Below, piece after piece: positions 4,278-63,888 of a stretch of DNA of 64,000 bases (position 1 is the first letter of the stretch; the number at the start of each line of letters is the position of its first letter). A program made the position numbers and the translations under genes. The notes beneath the pieces were generated by a model. The model made no database searches and was not told the origin of the DNA. It saw only the letters and a list, made by a program, of their open reading frames with translations. Source of the DNA: Anaerococcus jeddahensis (GTDB taxonomy: Bacteria; Bacillota; Clostridia; Tissierellales; Peptoniphilaceae); assembly GCF_001182725.1 (NCBI RefSeq), contig NZ_CWHU01000004.1, positions 223,506 through 287,505 of the forward strand, written 5' to 3'.

Positions 4278-4312
4278 GAATTTTTTTGATCAATTAATAA
4301 AGATATATATAG

Positions 4313-5686
4313 CCAATATCGACTAAAGGTAAGGTAGTGAAGTGCATAAGAGATCTCTTTATTTTCTTTGCTAAAAGCTTAGTTTTATTTTTTGATTAAT
4401 TTAATTTATTAGATCTCTCCACACTAAAACTCATTTGCTTCGCAAATTCCTTTGTGCTTATGAAAACTCATTTACTACGTAAATTCCTCCGTGCTCTCGC
4501 ACTAGTTTTAGGGATAAATATGCCAAATCAAGGCATATTTATCAGGTCGAGATGGGTGCTGATTTTATTTGGTTTATTTCTGAAGGATAGATTTTTTTTA
4601 TATTTGAATTTGATAAGAGATCTCTCGACTTCGCTCGAGATGGGCTAAATTGGAAATTTTTTATTACTAAATGATCATCTTAATTTAGATTGTATTTAAT
4701 ATATTTTCCTAATCGTTTTAATAAGTATAAACTTCAGCTATTAAATAAATATCCCAAACACCCATCTCGACTAAACGTAACGAAGTGGAGCGCACGGAGA
4801 GATCTCTTTTATTTTCTTTGCTAAAAGCTTAGTTTTATTTTTTGATTAATTTAATTTATGAGATCTCTTCTTATATTTTGCTAAAGGCTGATTCTGTTTC
4901 TTGATAAACTTAATCATGAGATCTCTCGACTTCGCTCGAGATGGGCTAAATTGGAAATTTTTTATTACTAAATAATTACCTTAATTTAGATTGTATTTAA
5001 TATATTTTCCTAATCGTTTTAATAAGTATAAACTTCAGCTATTAAATAAATATCCCAAACACCCATCTCGACTAAACGTAACGAAGTGGAGTGCACGGAG
5101 AGATCTCTTTTGTTTTCTTTGCTAAAAGCTTAGTTTTATTCTTAGATTAATTTAATAAATGAGATCTCTCGACTACTAAAACTCATTTGCTTCGCAAATT
5201 CTTCCGTGCTTATGAAAACTCATTTACTACGTAAATTCCTCCGTGCTCTCGCACTAGTTTTCAGGATTTATAACCGAAATCAACGGTTATAAATCTGCAC
5301 TAGTTTTAGGGATAAATATGCCAAATCAAGGCATATTTATCTGCTCGAGATGGGCTTAATTGGAAATTTTTTATTACTAAATAATCATCTTAATTTAGAT
5401 TGTATTTAATAGATTTTTCCTAATCGTTTTAATAATATAAACTTTAGCTATTAAATAAATATCCCCAACGCCCATCTCGACTAAACGTAACGTAGTGGAG
5501 TGCACAGAGAGATCTCTTTTGTTTTCTTTGCTAAAAGCTTAGTTTTATTTTTTGATTAATTTAATTTATGAGATCTCTCCACAAGGTCGAGATGGGGTAT
5601 GGATTATTCTACTTAATTGCTAAAGAGTAAATTTTTTTCATTTGAATTTAATAAAAGATTTATAAACTCACTTGGTTCGCTCGAGA
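4313..5686. repeat. Dense array of the GAGATCTC...GATGGG intergenic repeat plus tandem ~300-400 bp duplications
   Basis: This 1.5 kb gap has no credible gene. F denotes GAGATCTC to GATGGG read on the plus strand, R the reverse. Copies: R remnant 4313-4357; F 4411-4556; F 4617-4644; R 4761-4807; half copy 4860-4868; F 4918-4945; R 5062-5108; F 5161-5354; R 5471-5516; F 5570-5596; degenerate F about 5656-5686. The stretch from 'GCTAAATTGG' at 4645 to the next GAGATCTC recurs almost unchanged at 4946 and, after the long copy, at about 5355. This gives three tandem units sharing the 'TTGCTAAAAGCTTAG' block (also seen before 4411). The long copies 4411-4556 and 5161-5354 contain serial hairpins, including arms GATAAATATGCC/GGCATATTTATC at 4513-4543 and 5311-5341 and GATTTATAACCG/CGGTTATAAATC at 5265-5295. 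Confidence 0.9.
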
Positions 5687-5772
5687 TTTGTGTCCTTTTT
5701 ATTTACTTTGTTTTTAAGGAATTTTTTATTTTTTTATAAAAATTTTATCCCAAAATATTTAATATATACATA

Positions 5773-5817
5773 GAAAAACCCATCTTAATTTTTATTTTCA
5801 AGATGGGTTTTCTTTTT
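5773..5817. terminator. Terminator downstream of hemL, works in both directions
   Basis: Arms AAAACCCATCTT and AAGATGGGTTTT around a 13-base AT loop, with T-runs on both strands. It lies directly after the hemL stop. The arm sequence CCCATCT/AGATGGG resembles the outer end of the local repeats. Confidence 0.8.
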
Positions 5818-7096
5818 ATTTTGTTTTTTTAATATATTCTAGGGCTTTTTTGTTTTGTTCTATTGTGTAATTTATTATATCCTCATCTAAAGCGTCTGAC
5901 ATGAACATGGCTTCAAATTGGGCTGGGGGTAGGAGGATTTTTTTATCTTTCATGTAGTTAAAATATTTTGAATAGGTTTCAAGGTCTGCTTTTTGAACGT
6001 CGTCGTATGATTTTATTTGGTCAAATTCTCCAAAAAATATTGACATCATTGATTTATACCTTGTTACAAATCCGTCTACTCCCGTTTGTTTTAAATTATC
6101 TTTGAATCCTTCTTCTAGCATTTTTGCGTATTTTTCTAGTCTTTTATAAATATCTGGATTTTCTTTTAAAATTCTTAGAACATCTAGGCCCATTTTCATT
6201 ATAAATGGGGATCCTGATAGGGTTCCTGCTTGGTAGACTGGACCAATTGGTGATAAAACTTCCATAATTTCTCGTCTTCCTCCAAAGCCTCCAACTGGCA
6301 TTCCCCCTCCTACAATTTTTCCAAAGCAAAACATATCTGGTTTTACTCCAAATTCTGTAGAAATTGATCCGAATTTTAATCTAAAAGCTGTAATTACTTC
6401 GTCAAATATTAAAATTATTTTATTTTCTTCTGTAATTTTTCTAAGCTCTTTTACAAATTCCAAATCTATCGGAACAACTCCCATGTTTCCTGCTATTGGT
6501 TCTAAGATTACTGCTGCAATTTGATCTTTGTTTTCTTCAATTGTTTTTTTGACAGATTCTATATCGTTATATTTGCAAACCAGAGTATCTTTTATTACTT
6601 CTTTTGGAACTCCTGCTGATGTGGCTACATTAAAAGTCAATGCTCCCGATCCAGATTTTACCAATAGTCCATCAGAGTGGCCATGATAGCATCCTTCAAA
6701 TTTTATTATTTTATCTTTTTTAGTAAATCCTCTTGCACATCTTATGGCTGACATGGTTGCTTCTGTTCCAGAATTTACCATTCTTATCATATCGGTGTTG
6801 AAGGCTTCTGCCAAAAATTTTGCCATATCGACTTCTACTTTTGTAGGAAGCCCAAAGGTTAAGCCTTCTTCCAAATATCCTTTTGCTTTTTCGATTAATT
6901 CTTTTTTTCCGTGGCCCAAAATCATTGGTCCCCAAGATGAAATAAAATCTATATAAGCCTCGTCATTTTCATCAACGATTGTTGATCCTTTTCCATATTT
7001 TGCAAAAAGTGGATTGCCACCAACTGCTCCAAAGGCTCTTACTGGAGAATTTACTCCGCCTGGTATATATTTTTTTGCTTGGTCAAAAAGACTCAT
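5816..7096 (-). CDS. hemL: Glutamate-1-semialdehyde 2,1-aminomutase
   Basis: 426 residues, full length. This PLP enzyme turns glutamate-1-semialdehyde into 5-aminolevulinate, the second step of C5-pathway tetrapyrrole synthesis. Visible signatures: PGGVNSPVRAFG at the N-terminus, GCYHGHSDG, FDEVITAFR, and the PLP lysine in FGKIVGGGMPVGG. It is the last gene of the hem operon, with its ATG overlapping the hemB stop, and is followed by a strong terminator. Gene order does not follow reaction order: hemA is first and hemL last. Confidence 0.96.
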   Translation of the reverse strand: MSLFDQAKKYIPGGVNSPVRAFGAVGGNPLFAKYGKGSTIVDENDEAYIDFISSWGPMILGHGKKELIEKAKGYLEEGLTFGLPTKVEVDMAKFLAEAFNTDMIRMVNSGTEATMSAIRCARGFTKKDKIIKFEGCYHGHSDGLLVKSGSGALTFNVATSAGVPKEVIKDTLVCKYNDIESVKKTIEENKDQIAAVILEPIAGNMGVVPIDLEFVKELRKITEENKIILIFDEVITAFRLKFGSISTEFGVKPDMFCFGKIVGGGMPVGGFGGRREIMEVLSPIGPVYQAGTLSGSPFIMKMGLDVLRILKENPDIYKRLEKYAKMLEEGFKDNLKQTGVDGFVTRYKSMMSIFFGEFDQIKSYDDVQKADLETYSKYFNYMKDKKILLPPAQFEAMFMSDALDEDIINYTIEQNKKALEYIKKTK

Positions 7097-17840: not shown

Positions 17841-18243
17841 GAGATCTCTCCACTCCTTACAGTCGGTCGAGATGGGTGCAGGTTTTCTTTATTTAATCGC
17901 TAAAGTTTTATTTTCTCTTTTCTCTTGATTTTTATTGATATAAGTGCAATTTATTTTTCTTAATATAGGTGACTGTTATTTAATTTGATTATTTATTTTT
18001 ACTTAATTACATCCATATCAATTAATAAATCTAATAAAGCACAAACCCATCTCGAGCCTAGTCGAAAGATCTCTTTTATTATCTTTGCTTGTTATTTATT
18101 TTCGCTTTGAAATTTTCAAGATTATTTCATATATGCTTACTTTATTTTTAAATTAACTTAATGCACGAGATCTCTCCACTCCTTCCATACGATAAATCGG
18201 GATAAACATGCCAATCAAGGCATATTTATCTGGTCGAGATGGG
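17841..18243. repeat. Three copies of the GAGATCTC...GATGGG repeat (F, R, F)
   Basis: F 17841-17876, R 18046-18073, F 18167-18243. The last copy carries a hairpin with arms GATAAACATGCC and GGCATATTTATC (18201-18230), which has one C/A mismatch and a loop shortened by one base. The motif TTTAATYGCTRAAGTTTT follows GATGGGT in the two F copies (about 17898 and 18260). The gap holds no gene. Confidence 0.88.
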
Positions 18244-18300
18244 TGATGTATGACTTATTTAATTGCTGAAGTTTTGTATTTTTGGAAATTCATAAAATTA

Positions 18301-18346: not shown

Positions 18347-18943
18347 TTATTTTCTTTCGTGCAAAATTCCTGAAACGTGTTTGTACAATAATTTTGTCAC
18401 CAAAATTTCAATAAATCCTTTTATTAAATTAAATGGAACGATAGCGAAAATCATCATTGTAAAATATGATTTTACTAAGGCGTTTGTTTTTTGTGCCATT
18501 GCTACAAAAGCTCCCATATCAACTCCCATTGCTTTTCCGTAAAGTGGGAAAATTACAAAGGCATTTGATAAGGTTGCTGCAAGTGACATAACCAAAACTC
18601 CGCAAACCATAGCTATGGTTGCATTTTTTTTGGTTTTCTTTCTTTTATAAATGCTTGAAGAAACAAATACAAAAAGTCCACCGACAACAAAATTTGAAAC
18701 TTCTCCGACTCCATAAGTGCTAGTCTTGCTTAAATTTAAAATATTTTTAATAAGTTGGATTAAAATTCCATAAACAGGTCCCATTGAAAATCCACCAATA
18801 AGTGCTGGCACATCGGCAAGGTCAACTTTCATAAAAGGTGGTGCAACTGGAATTGGAAATTGAAAAAACATAAGTATAAAACTCATGGCTGCAAGAATTC
18901 CAACTTTAACTAGATTTCTTAATTTTTTTTGATCATGGCTCAT
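18347..18943 (-). CDS. ribU: Riboflavin ECF transporter substrate-binding subunit
   Basis: 198 residues, about five or six membrane helices. The family signature appears as FFQFPIPVAPPFMKVDLADVPALIGG near the N-terminus. RibU captures riboflavin and works with the shared EcfA/A'/T energising module, which is not in this window. The gene is preceded by an FMN riboswitch, which confirms the assignment. RBS TAGGAGG is seven bases before the ATG. No riboflavin biosynthesis genes are nearby, so the cell may depend on uptake. Confidence 0.95.
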   Translation of the reverse strand: MSHDQKKLRNLVKVGILAAMSFILMFFQFPIPVAPPFMKVDLADVPALIGGFSMGPVYGILIQLIKNILNLSKTSTYGVGEVSNFVVGGLFVFVSSSIYKRKKTKKNATIAMVCGVLVMSLAATLSNAFVIFPLYGKAMGVDMGAFVAMAQKTNALVKSYFTMMIFAIVPFNLIKGFIEILVTKLLYKHVSGILHERK

Positions 18944-18969: not shown

Positions 18970-18992
18970 AAAATGCCCTTTCAGGGCTCAAA
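18970..18992 (-). terminator. Terminator just before ribU, probable riboswitch expression platform
   Basis: On the minus strand GCCCT-GAA-AGGGC is followed by ATTTTTTTATG, 30 bases before the ribU ATG. An identical AGCCCTGAAAGGGC core occurs again next to the aptamer (19157-19172), but there without a T-run. Confidence 0.65.
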
Positions 18993-19050
18993 GCGTAGAC
19001 AAAGTCAGTTTAGTAATTCATTATTAATTTAAAATAAAATTACGCTAAAA

Positions 19051-19132
19051 CCCTTCTCGACTAAGTGAGTGAAACGAACGCATGGAGAGATCCCATGAGA
19101 TTTCTCCGCTCGTTGCACTCGGTCGAAATGGG
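19051..19132. repeat. Diverged repeat pair inside the ribU leader
   Basis: R-like 19051-19092 (CCCTTCTCGACT to GAGAGATCCC) immediately followed by F-like 19097-19132 (GAGATTTCTCC to GGTCGAAATGGG). Both ends have single-base changes from the family consensus. They lie between the FMN aptamer and the terminator before ribU. Confidence 0.8.
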
Positions 19133-19193
19133 AATTTTTTTAGTTTGTCAAAAGTCTGTGCCCTTTCAGGGCTTAAATAATTTCTCATAAAAA

Positions 19194-19306
19194 GAATATC
19201 TTCTCTCATCCAGACTATAACTGTCGGTATGGGAATTTCACCCATTCAGTAAAAACTCGCAGACTTTAACTGCCGGTTAGGAATCTAACCTCACCCTGAA
19301 GATATT
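19194..19306 (-). promoter_or_regulatory. FMN riboswitch (RFN element)
   Basis: The minus strand shows the conserved RFN blocks in order: P1 arm ATATCTTC with CAGGG, GGTTAGATTCCTAACC, CGGCAGTTAAAGTCTGCGAG, GGGTGAAATTCCCATACCG, ACAGTTATAGTCTGGATG, AGAGAAGATAT closing P1. This senses FMN and normally switches ribU off. It lies about 250 bases upstream of the ribU start, a longer distance than usual because repeats occupy the gap. Confidence 0.95.
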
Positions 19307-19339
19307 TATATAATATCACAAAATATTTTCATGTACAAG

Positions 19340-27932: not shown

Positions 27933-28534
27933 GAGATCTCTCGACTCGCTTTGCACGATAAATCGGGATAAATAACCGAAATCAACGGTTATTTATTTGC
28001 TCGAGATGGGTTATTTTTTCTTCTATTTAATTACTAAAGTTAGATTTATTTCCAGAAATTATAAATTCTTTTTTATAATAATATTACATTTTATTTATCT
28101 AACATAAAATTATGATTCTCTTAGTAATTTATTGTAAATTTTTTTAAAATCATTCGAAGTAAATTAGTAAATCAAAATTAACCCATCTCGGATTATAATC
28201 GAGAGATCTCTCGACTCATTACATTCGCTCGAGATGGGTTTGTATTCTTATTTTCAGTAATTATATATTTTGCTATTAGAATTTATTATATTTTTATAGA
28301 ATTCCTTAAAGTGATTCGAAGTATTTAGTAAATCAAAAATTAACCCATCTCGAGCGATAGTCGAGAGATCTCTTTATTAATTTTAGAAATTAATTTATTT
28401 TGTCCATTGAAGTTTACTATAAATTATTTAATATTTCCTAGATTTACTAAATTCATGAGATCTCTCGACTCGCTTTGCACGATAAATCGGGATAAATAAC
28501 CGAAATCAACGGTTGTTTATCTGCTCGAGATGGG
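27933..28534. repeat. Five copies of the GAGATCTC...GATGGG repeat (F, R, F, R, F)
   Basis: F 27933-28010, R 28182-28210, F 28203-28238, R 28344-28372, F 28457-28534. The middle R and F share one GAGATCTC core (28203-28210), making a composite palindrome. Copies 1 and 5 carry a hairpin with loop AAATCAA: arms GATAAATAACCG/CGGTTATTTATT at 27967-27997 and GATAAATAACCG/CGGTTGTTTATC at 28491-28521 (one wobble pair each). No gene in this 730-base gap. Confidence 0.9.
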
Positions 28535-31763: not shown

Positions 31764-31873
31764 GAGATCTCTCGACACTAAAACCCATTTGCTACGCAAA
31801 TTTCTCTGTGCTTTCGCACTAGTTCTAGGGATAAATATGCCAAATCAAGGCATATTTATCAGCTCGAGATGGG
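31764..31873. repeat. Long F copy of the GAGATCTC...GATGGG repeat
   Basis: Contains, in order, the small hairpin ATTTGCTACGCAAAT, the GTGC-TTTC-GCAC hairpin and the hairpin with arms GATAAATATGCC/GGCATATTTATC and loop AAATCAA (31830-31860). Downstream a weaker hairpin ACCTAT/ATAGGT occurs at about 31927-31947. Confidence 0.9.
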
Positions 31874-32657: not shown

Positions 32658-32685
32658 CCCATCTCGAGCCTAGTCGAGAGATCTC
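32658..32685. repeat. Short R copy of the GAGATCTC...GATGGG repeat
   Basis: CCCATCTCGAGC to GTCGAGAGATCTC, a minimal copy without inserted hairpins, about 100 bases from the start of the antitoxin RNA of the toxin locus. Confidence 0.85.
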
Positions 32686-32783
32686 ATTTATAATGTATGC
32701 AATAAATCATATGAAACCTAGAGTTTCAAAAATATATAACGAAAACATATTGAAATTAAAATTAAAAGATGTAAAATAATATT

Positions 32784-32846
32784 AAACATGGAGTCGAATA
32801 TACCATGACCAATTAAAAAGACAGGAGTGACGGCTCCTGTCTTTTT
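32784..32846 (+). ncRNA. Predicted type I antitoxin RNA (RNA II-like)
   Basis: Promoter TTGAAA (32750-32755), 16-base spacer, TAAAAT (32772-32777), then a transcript of about 63 bases ending in a terminator. It carries CATGGAGTCGAAT (32787-32799), which is complementary to the start of the toxin mRNA, because the near-identical CATAGAGTCGAAT (32930-32942) lies in the same orientation inside the toxin gene. Size and layout match RNA II of Fst/par-type systems. Confidence 0.65.
32815..32846. terminator. Bidirectional terminator shared by toxin and antitoxin RNAs
   Basis: GACAGGAG (32820-32827) and CTCCTGTC (32834-32841) with A-runs before and T-runs after on both strands. In Fst-type loci the two convergent RNAs share such a terminator. 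Confidence 0.85.
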
Positions 32847-32851
32847 ATGTG

Positions 32852-32950
32852 CTAATTATCGTTTTTAATATACCTATCTAGCCGCTTGCTGATATAATTT
32901 GCTATTATACCTGCTACGATAGATATAATCATAGAGTCGAATTTTTTCAT
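32852..32950 (-). CDS. Small hydrophobic peptide, predicted type I toxin (Fst-like layout)
   Basis: 32 residues beginning MKKFDSMIISIVAGIIANYI and ending SKRLDRYIKNDN: a charged start, one membrane helix, then a basic/charged tail, the usual plan of Fst/Ldr-type toxins. RBS AGGTGAGG lies before the ATG. A hairpin (arms CCCAACTG 32961-32968 and CAGTTTGGG 32973-32981, plus-strand lettering) sits immediately upstream, as in Fst mRNA where a helix limits ribosome access. -10 box TATAAT at 32997-33002. Membrane damage when the antitoxin is lost is the family behaviour; here it is inferred. Confidence 0.65.
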   Translation of the reverse strand: MKKFDSMIISIVAGIIANYISKRLDRYIKNDN

Positions 32951-33064
32951 AACCTCACCTCCCAACTGTTACCAGTTTGGGTACGATAACATATTAATTA
33001 TATCATTTCGAAAAATCATAAACTATTAAATTGAAAATAAAATAAAAACTTATATAGTAATATT

Positions 33065-33128
33065 GAGCATGGTACCGAGTTATATCCATGACCAAACAAA
33101 AAGACAGGAGCAGCCACTCCTGTCTTTT
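33065..33128 (+). ncRNA. Second, apparently orphan antitoxin-like RNA
   Basis: Paralogue of the antitoxin RNA at 32784. Promoter TTGAAA (33031-33036), 16-base spacer, TATAGT (33053-33058); transcript ends in GACAGGAG/CTCCTGTC (33103-33124). Its recognition segment reads GCATGGTACCGAG, different from the first locus. Confidence 0.5.
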
Positions 33129-33185
33129 ATTGTGCTAATTATCGTGTTTATAATATCATTTTGAAAATCATAAACTGTTAAATTG
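33129..33185 (-). pseudogene. Deleted toxin gene remnant of the second locus
   Basis: Minus strand keeps the promoter side (CAGTTTATGATTTT, AAAATGATAT) and the extreme 3' end (ACGATAATTAGCAC) seen at the intact toxin locus. Leader, ribosome site and nearly the whole coding region between them are missing, consistent with an internal deletion. Confidence 0.55.
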
Positions 33186-33229
33186 AAATTTCACGGGTTC
33201 AAAATTAATTAAAATCCAAAATTAATAAA

Positions 33230-33390
33230 GAGATCTCTCGACTTCGCTCGAGAAGGGTTTGGCTTCGTTTATATTTTAGTTTGATTTTTATAAATAAGTA
33301 AAAGTTTATAATCCATTTCAATTAAAAATATAAACTTCAGCATTTAAATAAATACCATATTTACCCATCTCGAGCCTGTCGAGAGATCTC
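33230..33390. repeat. F and R short copies of the GAGATCTC...GATGGG repeat
   Basis: F 33230-33257 (ending AGAAGGG, one base off consensus) and R 33364-33390. Nothing else is recognised between 33260 and 33540. Confidence 0.85.
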
Positions 33391-34628: not shown

Positions 34629-35228
34629 GAGATCTCTCCACTCGCTCCACTCGGTCGAGATGGGTAATTATTATCTTTGTTTTGCTACTGACGTTCTTAT
34701 TTTATTTATATTCTCATTATTAACTTTTTAAATGAAATATTTACTTAAACTTAAAAAACAAAACGAAGTAAAACCCATCTCGAGCTTGCCGAGAGATCTC
34801 TGGATTGTATTGTGATGATGCTTTGATTTTTACTTTGGATTATCTAAGGATATTTCTTTAAATATTTACTTTTCCTCTAGATATGTATATCTATGAGATC
34901 TCTCCATTCGCTATGCTCAGTCGAGATGGGTATTGTTCTCTTTATTTTATTACTAAAGTTCTTATTTCTTTATATCCTCATATTAACTTATATAATTAAT
35001 TATTTTTACATATTAATAAATCAAACGAAGTCTAACCCATCTCGAGCTGATAAATATGCCTTGATTTGGCATATTTATCCCTAAAACTAGTGCAGATTTA
35101 TAACCGTTGATTTCGGTTATAAATCCTGAAAACTAGTGCGAGAGCACGGAAGAATTTACGTAGTAAATGAGTTTTCATAAGCACGGAAAAATTTGCATAG
35201 CAAATGGGTTTTAGTGTCTAGAGATCTC
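34629..35228. repeat. Four alternating copies of the GAGATCTC...GATGGG repeat (F, R, F, R)
   Basis: F 34629-34664, R 34774-34800, F 34895-34930, R 35036-35228, spaced 145, 121 and 141 bases apart. The last is the longest copy. Read backwards it holds the ATTTGC and ATTTAC small hairpins, the GTGC hairpin, then two loop-AAATCAA hairpins: GATTTATAACCG/CGGTTATAAATC (35095-35125) and GATAAATATGCC/GGCATATTTATC (35049-35079). It mirrors the copy at 5161-5354 over nearly its whole length. No gene in this 780-base gap. Confidence 0.9.
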
Positions 35229-45166: not shown

Positions 45167-45562
45167 GTCGAGATGGGTTATGATACGCTTGTTTTTTTTA
45201 TGGTTTTTGTCTTATTTTTCTTTCCATTTTTTATTTAATCAGTTATTTTTGTTTTGTTTTTAATTTTTTTATTTAATCTGCTATTTTTTATTTTGTATTC
45301 CAGTTTTCATTTCTAATTTTGAATTTAATAAATAGAAGATTAAATCTATTTGAAGATAAAGAGTGCATCTATCAATTACCCATCTCGATCCTAGTCGAGA
45401 GATCTATTACGTAGACTTGGATCTTTATTTTTTATTTTCTTTGGATTTCTCCTCTGGCTTTTATTTTTTTCCAAATTTTTCAACGAGATTTCTCAGCGCT
45501 TTCGCACTTGGTTTTAGGGATAAATATGCCAAATCAAAGCATATTTATCTGATCGAGATGGG
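45167..45562. repeat. Repeat copies at the broken pilin end: half F, R, F
   Basis: Half F 45167-45178 (only the GTCGAGATGGG end remains, fused to the pilin remnant), R 45379-45406, F 45485-45562. The last carries a hairpin with arms GATAAATATGCC/AGCATATTTATC (45519-45549, one mismatch). Nothing else is recognised between the pilin remnant and the sortase terminator. Confidence 0.85.
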
Positions 45563-48889: not shown

Positions 48890-48949
48890 ATATTGATATT
48901 TTTAGATAATTCAAGGAATTTATTTTAATATTATATTTACAAAATTAAT

Positions 48950-49261
48950 GAGATCTCTCGACTAGGCCCGATATGGGTTTGGGTTAGATTTTTTTTATTG
49001 CTAAAGTCTTTGTATCTGTATTTTATTTATTTTTTATTTTTAATTCAAGAATAAATTTTAATATTTTATTTACAAAATTAATGAGATCTCTCGACTAGGC
49101 TCGAGATGGGTGATTATTATATTAATTTATTGCTAAAGTTTTTATTTTTGAATTAGCTATTTTTTATTTTAAAATTTAAATTAATAAATACAATATTACG
49201 TTAATTCTAAGTTTCTAATTGCATAAATCAGTTACCCATCTCGAGCTTGTCGAGAAATCTC
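48950..49261. repeat. Three short copies of the GAGATCTC...GATGGG repeat (F, F, R)
   Basis: F 48950-48977 (ending CGATATGGG, one change), F 49083-49110, R 49235-49261. The two F copies share their upstream flank ('TTTACAAAATTAATGAGATC') and follow-on 'TTATTGCTAAAG', so the unit itself looks duplicated at about 133 bases. The remaining gap to 49476 has nothing recognised. Confidence 0.88.
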
Positions 49262-54055: not shown

Positions 54056-54370
54056 GAGATCTCTCGACACTAAAACCCGTTTGCTTCGCAAACTTTTCCG
54101 TGCTCTCGCACTAATTTTAGGGATAAATATGCCAAATCAAGGCATATTTATCGGCTCGAGATGGGTGTGGGTTGGATTTTTTTAATTGCTAAAGTTTTGA
54201 GTTCTTTGCTAGAGTTTTTTTATCGGTTTCTTATTAAGGAAATTTTATTATTTTTATAATTTATATTTCCAATATAAATAAGCGAAGTTAAACCCATCTC
54301 GAGCGGATAAACAACCGTTGATTTCGGTTGTTTATCCCGATTTATCGTATGTAATGAGTCGAGAGATCTC
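54056..54370. repeat. F and R long copies of the GAGATCTC...GATGGG repeat
   Basis: F 54056-54166 with hairpin arms GATAAATATGCC/GGCATATTTATC (54122-54152), and R 54293-54370 with arms GATAAACAACCG/CGGTTGTTTATC (54306-54336). They face each other with GATGGG ends inward, 126 bases apart. The rest of the 770-base gap between rbr and pgi shows only the rbr promoter. Confidence 0.9.
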
Positions 54371-63676: not shown

Positions 63677-63888
63677 AAAAAAACACACCATCCCAAAGGA
63701 CGATGTGTCGTGGTTCCACCTTAATTTATACTCATTGATGTTTTAAGGCAGGTCATGCCTTTCGTATTACCGAAAATATCAGGGGTGGTCTTGGGGATAA
63801 TCTCAATTAAAAGCTCTCAGCAAACACTTTTTCTCTGTAAAAAAAGTAAAATCCTTACTCTTCCCGTCATCTAATCTATTTTTCTTAT
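63677..63888 (-). promoter_or_regulatory. Thr-specific T-box riboswitch of thrS
   Basis: Minus-strand order: promoter TTGCAA (63917-63922) with a 16-base spacer to TAATAT (63895-63900); stem I with AGTAAGGAT and GCTGAGAGC; specifier ACC in AAGACCACCCC (about 63786-63790); T-box AAGGTGGAACCACG (63709-63722); terminator ACACATCGTCC/GGATGGTGTGT then TTTTTTT (63678-63708). Beyond 63925 the sequence is AT-rich with no gene seen. Confidence 0.93.

Follow-up and report, generated by a model that had tools for sequence, protein, structure and literature searches.

The question raised by this locus was what kind of element is formed by the short repeats that crowd its intergenic DNA, and how such repeats came to be there. 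The repeats at 4313-5686 constitute one array inside a 1,538-bp gap (4278-5815). Our approach was to define the repeat in the surrounding DNA, to compare its copies with the corresponding gaps of related genomes, and to look for a transposase that could act on it. The stretch of DNA analyzed, called the window here, comprises 64,000 nucleotides of contig C4 of the host genome (C4:223506-287505), and positions given without a contig are those of the window. The host is an Anaerococcus close to A. ihuae: in one 1,281-bp gene, identity to the window was 96% in A. ihuae, 91% in A. senegalensis and A. hydrogenalis, and 79% in another genome of the comparison, G021; a fifth genome, G037, gave matches of 31 and 51 bp only.

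Repeat landmarks in the window

Two landmarks characterize the repeat. The sequence GAGATCTC, which is its own reverse complement, was found 27 times in the window (0.44 expected), and TCGAGATGGG was found 34 times with no more than one mismatch (1.16 expected) and 29 times exactly. These counts establish that the family is real; its members are present in both orientations. Pairing of the landmarks into frames with ends no more than about 200 bp apart gave 27 GAGATCTC..TCGAGATGGG frames, and the sizes proposed in the initial annotation, about 28 bases for minimal copies and about 194 for the longest, agreed with the 27-28 bp and 194 bp observed. One frame of 207 bp (4350-4556) starts at a GAGATCTC that is part of the adjacent arm. 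The landmark sites are spread over 10 gaps, and none of the 57 exact sites lies within the 48 ORFs of at least 100 aa that were kept and that make up 80% of the window, just as had been claimed from the sequence (copies in about ten gaps, only between genes).

The repeat had originally been described as a unit bounded by GAGATCTC and GATGGG. Both proved instead to be marks of hairpin arms that lie within larger elements. The arms are arranged as ordered pairs facing one another, and both ends of the interval 4313-5686 are degenerate arms. Two types of element, A and B, were distinguished (Table 1). The type A copy in the window reaches 26 and 62 nt beyond its arms at its two ends. Most copies, including the array at 4313-5686, are type B, which has the arms of type A without its IS1182-like ends.

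Table 1 Positions of repeat elements and associated features in the window
Feature	Position	Strand	Remarks
Array of type B arms	4278-5815	.	three copies of a 252-bp block (spacings 301, 409), between convergent genes
Minimal arm GAGATCTCTCGACTTCGCTCGAGATGGG	4617-4644	+	
Type B terminal motif TTTAATAGCTGAAG	4732-4745	-	29 nt beyond GGG
Arm, 46 bp	4761-4806	-	opposite orientation
Minimal arm	4918-4945	+	
Type B terminal motif TTTAATAGCTGAAG	5033-5046	-	29 nt beyond GGG
Arm, 46 bp	5062-5107	-	
Arm, 194 bp	5161-5354	+	loop with nested hairpin modules
Type B terminal motif TTTAATAGCTAAAG	5442-5455	-	29 nt beyond GGG
Arm, 46 bp	5471-5516	-	
Arm, 27 bp	5570-5596	+	
Type B terminal motif CTTAATTGCTAAAG	5612-5625	+	ends 29 nt beyond GGG
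Type B cluster	17841-18243	.	arms 17841-17876 +, 18046 -, 18167-18243 +; motifs 17892-17905, 18258-18271
ECF riboflavin transporter S component	18347-18943	-	Pfam PF12822, PF07155; downstream of riboswitch and insertion
Duplicated terminator hairpin, copy 1, TGCCCTTTCAGGGCT	18974-18988	.	15-bp exact duplication; keeps T-run on minus strand and is called terminator-like there
Type A element, 170 bp	18989-19158	+	CAAAGCGTAGACAAAGTCAG...two arms...TTTAGTTTGTCAAAAGTCTG; ends resemble those of IS1182; included in an alignment of 14 copies
Duplicated hairpin, other copy	19159-19173	.	next to riboswitch; no T-run on minus strand, no terminator call
FMN riboswitch	19194-19307	-	Rfam RF00050, 106.3 bits; downstream terminator is the target hairpin
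Type B cluster	27933-28534	.	five arms
Single arm, 110 bp	31764-31873	+	nested modules
Arms	32658-33390	.	32658-32685 -, 33230-33257 + (GAGAAGGG), 33364-33390 -
Type B cluster	34629-35228	.	four arms
Right ends only	45168-45562	.	45168 +, 45379 -, 45553 +; gap without exact GAGATCTC
Type B cluster	48950-49244	.	partly in 133-bp tandem duplication (48922-49173); compared with A. ihuae
Inward-facing arm pair	54056-54370	.	54056-54165 + / 54293-54370 -; motif 54181-54194, exact TTTAATTGCTAAAG

Type A elements and their insertion sites

Type A elements have distinct ends, empty sites in relatives, and a hairpin on both sides. The copy in the window (C4:242494-242663) occupies a site at which A. 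ihuae, A. senegalensis, and A. hydrogenalis have no insert. The hairpin sequence TGCCCTTTCAGGGCT flanks this copy on both sides, and one such hairpin is present in all three relatives. Gaps of contig C4 containing repeats were paired with stretches of the relatives by their flanks, and twelve clusters were compared in this way. In clusters 3, 5, 8, 17, and 20 terminator-like hairpins flanked the insert on both sides, and at least one relative had a single hairpin and no insert; the sequence of this single hairpin differs in some of the five. Six of the twelve (clusters 2, 4, 27, 35, 38, and 44) gave no clean filled/empty picture.

A scan of 1.06 Mb from four species (C4 of the host genome, A. 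ihuae C2:1-340000, A. senegalensis C1:1058001-1325000, and 60 kb of A. hydrogenalis) yielded 23 intervals with both type A ends. Twenty-one of these were distinct: 14 from the host genome, six from A. ihuae, and one from A. senegalensis. The copy count depends on the end patterns used, which did not pick up the insert of cluster 8. The elements range from 146 to 422 bp, and the copy in the window contains no transposase; 14 copies, picked from the 21, align well. Thirteen of the 23 intervals are flanked by a duplication of 15 bp or more with no more than two mismatches, compared with 1 of 5,000 random flank pairs. Eight of the 21 distinct copies missed this strict threshold, several of them showing diverged hairpins; only one flank of the copy at C4:40960 bears a good hairpin, and the copy at 84012 is a weak call. 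A 6-bp stem by itself was not counted as evidence, because 31% of random 34-mers contain one.

The hairpin targeted in the window is the terminator of an FMN riboswitch. In A. ihuae, where the site is empty, the riboswitch (L275:5686-5798, + strand) is followed by GCCCTGAAAGGGC and a T-run at 5820-5832. The target hairpin was called terminator-like in both the window and A. ihuae. In the window, the call fell on the hairpin with the T-run (18987-18975, - strand); the other hairpin copy, which adjoins the riboswitch and is 185 nt closer to it, lacks a T-run and was not called. Judged from this arrangement, the insertion is likely to uncouple the riboswitch from its terminator, and the site provides a natural case of a type A element in an FMN riboswitch expression platform. 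At gathering scores, Rfam matched only this riboswitch and a T-box leader in the window, neither of them over a repeat; the T-box leader lies at the window edge (63693-63879, - strand, RF00230, 96 bits).

IS1182 as a candidate partner

The initial annotation had noted that the window contains no transposase. This holds for the Y1 and IS1182 families, both of which were searched genome-wide. The ends of type A nevertheless resemble those of IS1182 elements of the genus: CAGACTGTTGACAAACTAA matches CAGACTGTAGACAAAGTAG at 16 of 19 positions, as does CAGAGCGTAGACAAAGTCA with CAGAGCGTCGACAAACCCA (16 of 19). Genus IS1182 copies start with CAGACTGTAGACAAAGTAG; those of G016 end with GGGTTTGTCGACGCTCTG and have the same hairpin on each side, for example AGGCATCCATATTGGATGCCT. 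Thirty IS1182 loci were fetched, and 15 of them hold the left end. The left flank recurs 1.5-1.6 kb farther on in five of these 15 (L286, L287, L288, L300, and L312), the same five that have hairpins on both sides; in the other 10, no recurrence was present in the stretch tested, some of these copies being broken or cut. The IS1182 copy of A. ihuae has a hairpin on both sides and a diverged right end.

Fifteen of the 31 genomes of the genus matched the IS1182 profile NF033551; among them, A. ihuae carries one intact ORF and A. hydrogenalis a fragment. There was no match in the host genome, A. senegalensis, or G037, and G016 and other genomes contain IS1182 and no repeats; the presence of IS1182 and the presence of the repeats are therefore uncorrelated. 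A MITE (miniature element) of the IS1182 family would be expected to have ends matching those of the IS, to use and duplicate the same type of target, and to share its genome with a partner. Type A has the matching ends and the duplicated hairpin target, and its own genome lacks the partner. IS1182, intact in the nearest relative, A. ihuae, is thus a candidate partner, and the likeness of the ends suggests that its transposase would supply the activity for type A in trans.

IS1272, a member of the IS1182 family, is described as targeting inverted-repeat hairpins of varying sequence; in three new insertions it replaced the hairpin and left no duplication, and in the authors' model a pathway (b) would duplicate the whole hairpin (PMC5678879). 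Type A differs from those three insertions in having a hairpin on both sides. The Anaerococcus sites thus present IS1182-type insertions with hairpin duplication, an outcome that figures as a possibility in the IS1272 model and was not seen in the three insertions studied there. IS1182 insertions are also reported to be overrepresented between convergent genes (PMC9208149). In the archaeon Methanosarcina acetivorans, non-autonomous IS1182-related MITEs of 160 and 169 bp, linked to ISMac2, have been described (PMC3852290). They resemble type A in being small and non-autonomous and in having an IS1182-family partner; they differ in their archaeal host and in their direct repeats, which are 4 and 0 as we read the table columns, and the passage that describes them is silent on hairpin targets and REP-like arms (PMC3852290). 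In the open-licence literature searched, none of the papers listed was seen to describe IS1182 MITEs that duplicate a hairpin or to report these repeats from Anaerococcus.

Type B arms and arrays

Behind the GGG of the arm, type B copies share a T-rich stretch followed by TTTAATTGCTAAAG, and conservation drops sharply behind its last G. This putative end lies 28-29 nt beyond GGG. Because the conservation profile was anchored on the motif, the motif's own columns are inflated; the preceding TTTA columns lie outside the anchor. The 9-nt core was in place, with no more than two mismatches, at 100 of 239 right ends not belonging to type A, compared with 3.4% of random 18-nt windows. In the window, the motif accompanied 18 of the 29 exact right ends when up to four mismatches were allowed, 16 of them at 28-29 nt. 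The copies of G037 are also type B as judged by eye from the 30 of 34 that were printed.

Type B has neither the IS1182-like ends nor the hairpin duplication of an IS1182 MITE. No target duplication was seen beside its ends in 20 pairs, and no clean empty site was found among the stretches from the host genome, A. ihuae, A. senegalensis, A. hydrogenalis, and G021; we therefore infer its mobility from its dispersal and its shared end. The arm pair at 54056-54370 is missing from the corresponding gap in A. ihuae and A. senegalensis, with boundaries that are not clean. The original suggestion of a miniature mobile element thus stands for type A, with its empty sites, hairpin duplications, and IS1182-like ends, whereas for type B, the array at 4313-5686 included, it is a probable reading.

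Spacers were compared for homology at a z of 6. The 32 spacers that separate facing right ends gave 10 homologous pairs, and the 15 that separate GAGATCTC sites gave 11; all but one of the 21 pairs lie within 6.1 kb. Tandem blocks of 301 bp (array 4278-5815) and 133 bp (48922-49173) were present. Spacer homology is thus largely a matter of single arrays and is seldom shared by distant loci, and arrays therefore grow by local duplication.

Loops, nested modules, and RNA folding

That the loop accepts inserts, as had been proposed, was confirmed in two ways. In cluster 21, entire loop modules are present in an arm of the host genome and missing from its A. ihuae ortholog, or the reverse; among the 14 aligned type A copies, five hold a loop module, always at one position. 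A nested module, GAT-N9-AAATCAA-N9-ATC, occurs in the window at 4513-4543, 5311-5341, 31830-31860, and 54122-54152. Its stem covaries between copies while its loop is nearly constant. In 32 distinct sequences, of which a few are chance matches of the loose pattern, in-register pairing was found in 252 of 288 cells, compared with 37-40% in four slid controls, and both-sided cells numbered 75 over 9 of 9 pairs, compared with 10-14 over 4-6 pairs in the controls. Template-switch correction of quasi-palindromes can also yield stem covariation. The covariation of the module could thus reflect either selection for the hairpin or template-switch correction of palindromes.

The RNA of the window type A copy folds better than all of 200 shuffles (z -4.0). 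Compensatory change in the type A arms was found in none of the 21 predicted pairs.

Distribution and relation to known families

Across the whole host genome there are 129 occurrences of the right-end motif and one of the reversed control. Contigs C2-C4 (673 kb) contain 110 of these copies (8, 16, and 86, respectively) and the remaining 1.23 Mb contains 19, a tenfold difference in density. Among 130 genomes of the family, the motif was at high copy in five, all within the 31 genomes of the genus: the host genome (G000, 129), A. hydrogenalis (G010, 80), A. ihuae (G011, 76), A. senegalensis (G024, 64), and G037 (34). The remaining family genomes had 12 matches at most (G072, control 2) and were mostly close to controls.

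A cross-genome scan found the arm GAGATCTCTCGAC-N0-30-TCGAGATG in at least 112 stretches. Among the matches listed, the arm continued with AC in 95 of 121 (GATGAC) and with GG in 21 of 121. Fifteen of the 21 GG-type arms listed were in Anaerococcus records, and the other six (L112, L115, L129 twice, L137, and L141) align to the host's own contig. Arms ending in GATGAC were found in at least six other phyla. The hosts include Bacteroidales, Prevotella, Bifidobacterium aquikefiri, Treponema, Verrucomicrobiales, and Aliikangiella, as well as Cloacimonadota, Moranii-, Uhr-, and Magasanikbacteria, several Patescibacteria being among the latter. Arms from outside Anaerococcus, in the copies printed, often form inverted pairs, TGTCAT..GAGAAATCTC-spacer-GAGATCTC..GAGATGACA; these pairs end at TGTCAT..ATGACA and have no outer ends of the Anaerococcus kind. 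In L079, L039, and L065 (Prevotella/Bacteroidales) and in L140, right halves of the arm stand in tandem with a short linker, for example TTCGAGATGACAAGGGGACG, an arrangement unlike that in Anaerococcus.

The pneumococcal BOX, RUP, and SPRITE repeats are likewise short intergenic elements. They are similar to the Anaerococcus repeats by description, being also bunched and inserting into one another (PMC10969869).

The initial annotation recognized no published family. The arm does resemble the CGTC-tagged REPs surveyed by Di Nocera et al. (2013; PMC3733652), yet departs from part of their definition. Those REPs occur as inverted dimers in several phyla, in H. neapolitanus inside 41-bp palindromes, and have stems of 8-9 bp, loops of 4-5 nt, and tails that are mostly CCA; the survey describes no dedicated transposase for them and leaves open their movement by others (PMC3733652). 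The arm resembles them in its inverted dimers, in its spread over several phyla, and in occurring apart from transposase genes, and it may share a CGTC/TGTC tag outside a stem that starts with AT. In the test for the tag (CGTC, TGTC, or CCTC, then AT), the 95 GATGAC matches read GTCAT on the other strand, whereas Anaerococcus has GATGGG. The Anaerococcus arm further differs in its loops, the longest of which exceed 170 nt (up to 176 nt between landmarks), in having GAGATCTC rather than the CCA-type tail (PMC3733652) at its inner end, and in its tag, which reads CCC. Because its stem, loop, and tail depart from theirs, the arm was not filed under the CGTC-tagged REPs.

Origin of the repeats

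The explanation that we favor, with a probability of roughly 0.78, is that the repeats are the REP-like arms of MITEs, type A being an IS1182-family MITE and type B a sister family. An IS1182-type transposase would act on the type A ends, CAGAGCGTAGACAAAGT and CAGACTGTTGACAAACT, and the element would insert at the foot of an intrinsic-terminator hairpin, leaving a whole copy of the hairpin on each side. With a hairpin copy on each side, each neighboring gene may therefore keep a terminator. Type B is presumably an older sister family with the same arms and another terminal motif, moved by some mobilizer; its arrays grew through local tandem duplication, and nested hairpin modules are gained and lost in its loops. 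The weakest links of this explanation are the absence of IS1182 from the host genome and the putative mobility of type B. A REP-like repeat, for whose kind a survey had turned up no transposase, is here tied to a named family through its ends, empty sites, and duplications. A broader proposal, that CGTC-type REP dimers in general are or once were moved by hairpin-recognizing DDE transposases such as IS1182, is speculative and in our judgment improbable. Such transposases would read DNA hairpins as cargo and target alike; if so, Anaerococcus would have preserved the ends, the arms, and the target in association, and the nested loops would be records of hairpin-seeking elements inserting into each other.

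One competing explanation deserves serious weight, at somewhat less than an even chance: the arms would be a separate CGTC-REP-like dimer found across phyla, with its own enzyme or spread by hairpin-dependent recombination, and type A would have captured IS1182 ends. The distribution of GAGATCTCTCGAC..TCGAGATG over many phyla, the predominance of AC over GG among the matches listed, the lack of outer ends on the printed pairs from outside Anaerococcus, and the type B arms without IS1182 ends all speak for such a dimer. Against it, no enzyme was found for it, and within Anaerococcus the sole clean insertions have ends outside the arms. The dimer is compatible with the MITE explanation of type A itself. 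The initial annotation had offered an RNA role as an alternative to mobility; under such a reading, the hairpins would be selected as terminators, mRNA 3'-end stabilizers, or regulators. The intergenic placement, the stable fold of the window copy, and the retained stem of the nested module fit that role, but no compensatory change was detected at the paired positions of the type A arms, orthologous gaps differ between species in whether they contain a repeat, and no Rfam match lies over one; we consider an RNA-level element distinctly unlikely. Mere local tandem duplication of AT-rich intergenic DNA agrees with the 301-bp and 133-bp blocks and the homologous spacers within arrays. For the family as a whole it is refuted by the 129 copies genome-wide, the high copy number in five genomes of the genus, and the clean single insertions, and we give it almost no credence there; it stands as the explanation of array growth.

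A REPIN/RAYT system, in which a REP-associated tyrosine transposase mobilizes inverted hairpin pairs through single-stranded intermediates, was our first expectation, given the inverted pairs; it was rejected for lack of a RAYT gene flanked by the repeat in the genomes and loci searched, and we now regard it as very unlikely. Like REPINs, the arms are scattered over intergenic DNA as hairpins in inverted pairs and carry a short outer tag, but they have no GTAG/GTGG guide (the tag is CCC or GTC), and their target hairpin is duplicated. RAYT-like ORFs of 236-238 aa were present in A. senegalensis, A. hydrogenalis, and G021, and the stretches scanned matched the NCBIfam REP-associated model below its cut-off. 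However, these genes are flanked by other ends (GGGACGTTC..GCGTCCC), and two of the loci have no repeat closer than about 6 kb, with none in the 19 kb of the third. Gene and repeat also fail to coincide: G021 has a RAYT-like gene and a single motif match, while the host genome, A. ihuae, and G037 have repeats and no RAYT-like gene that we could find. The one Y1 match of the host genome belongs to the IS200 type and lies in a 3.4-kb locus that contains no repeat, and Prevotella sp. ne3005 (63 repeat matches) and B. aquikefiri (90 matches) gave no Y1 match.

In Bacteroidales Tb.RUG.440 (L212), repeats occur near a weak Y1 match; this candidate was also considered and rejected, as no element was seen around the match and the gaps that contain the repeats adjoin other genes. 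The gaps of this locus hold the arm in several stem variants, such as GAAATGAC and GAGATGAC. The RAYT-like ORFs of Anaerococcus (L188:9591-10307, L189:9470-10186, and L190:9226-9936), with their inverted GGGACGTTC-type ends, constitute a separate small element of the genus.
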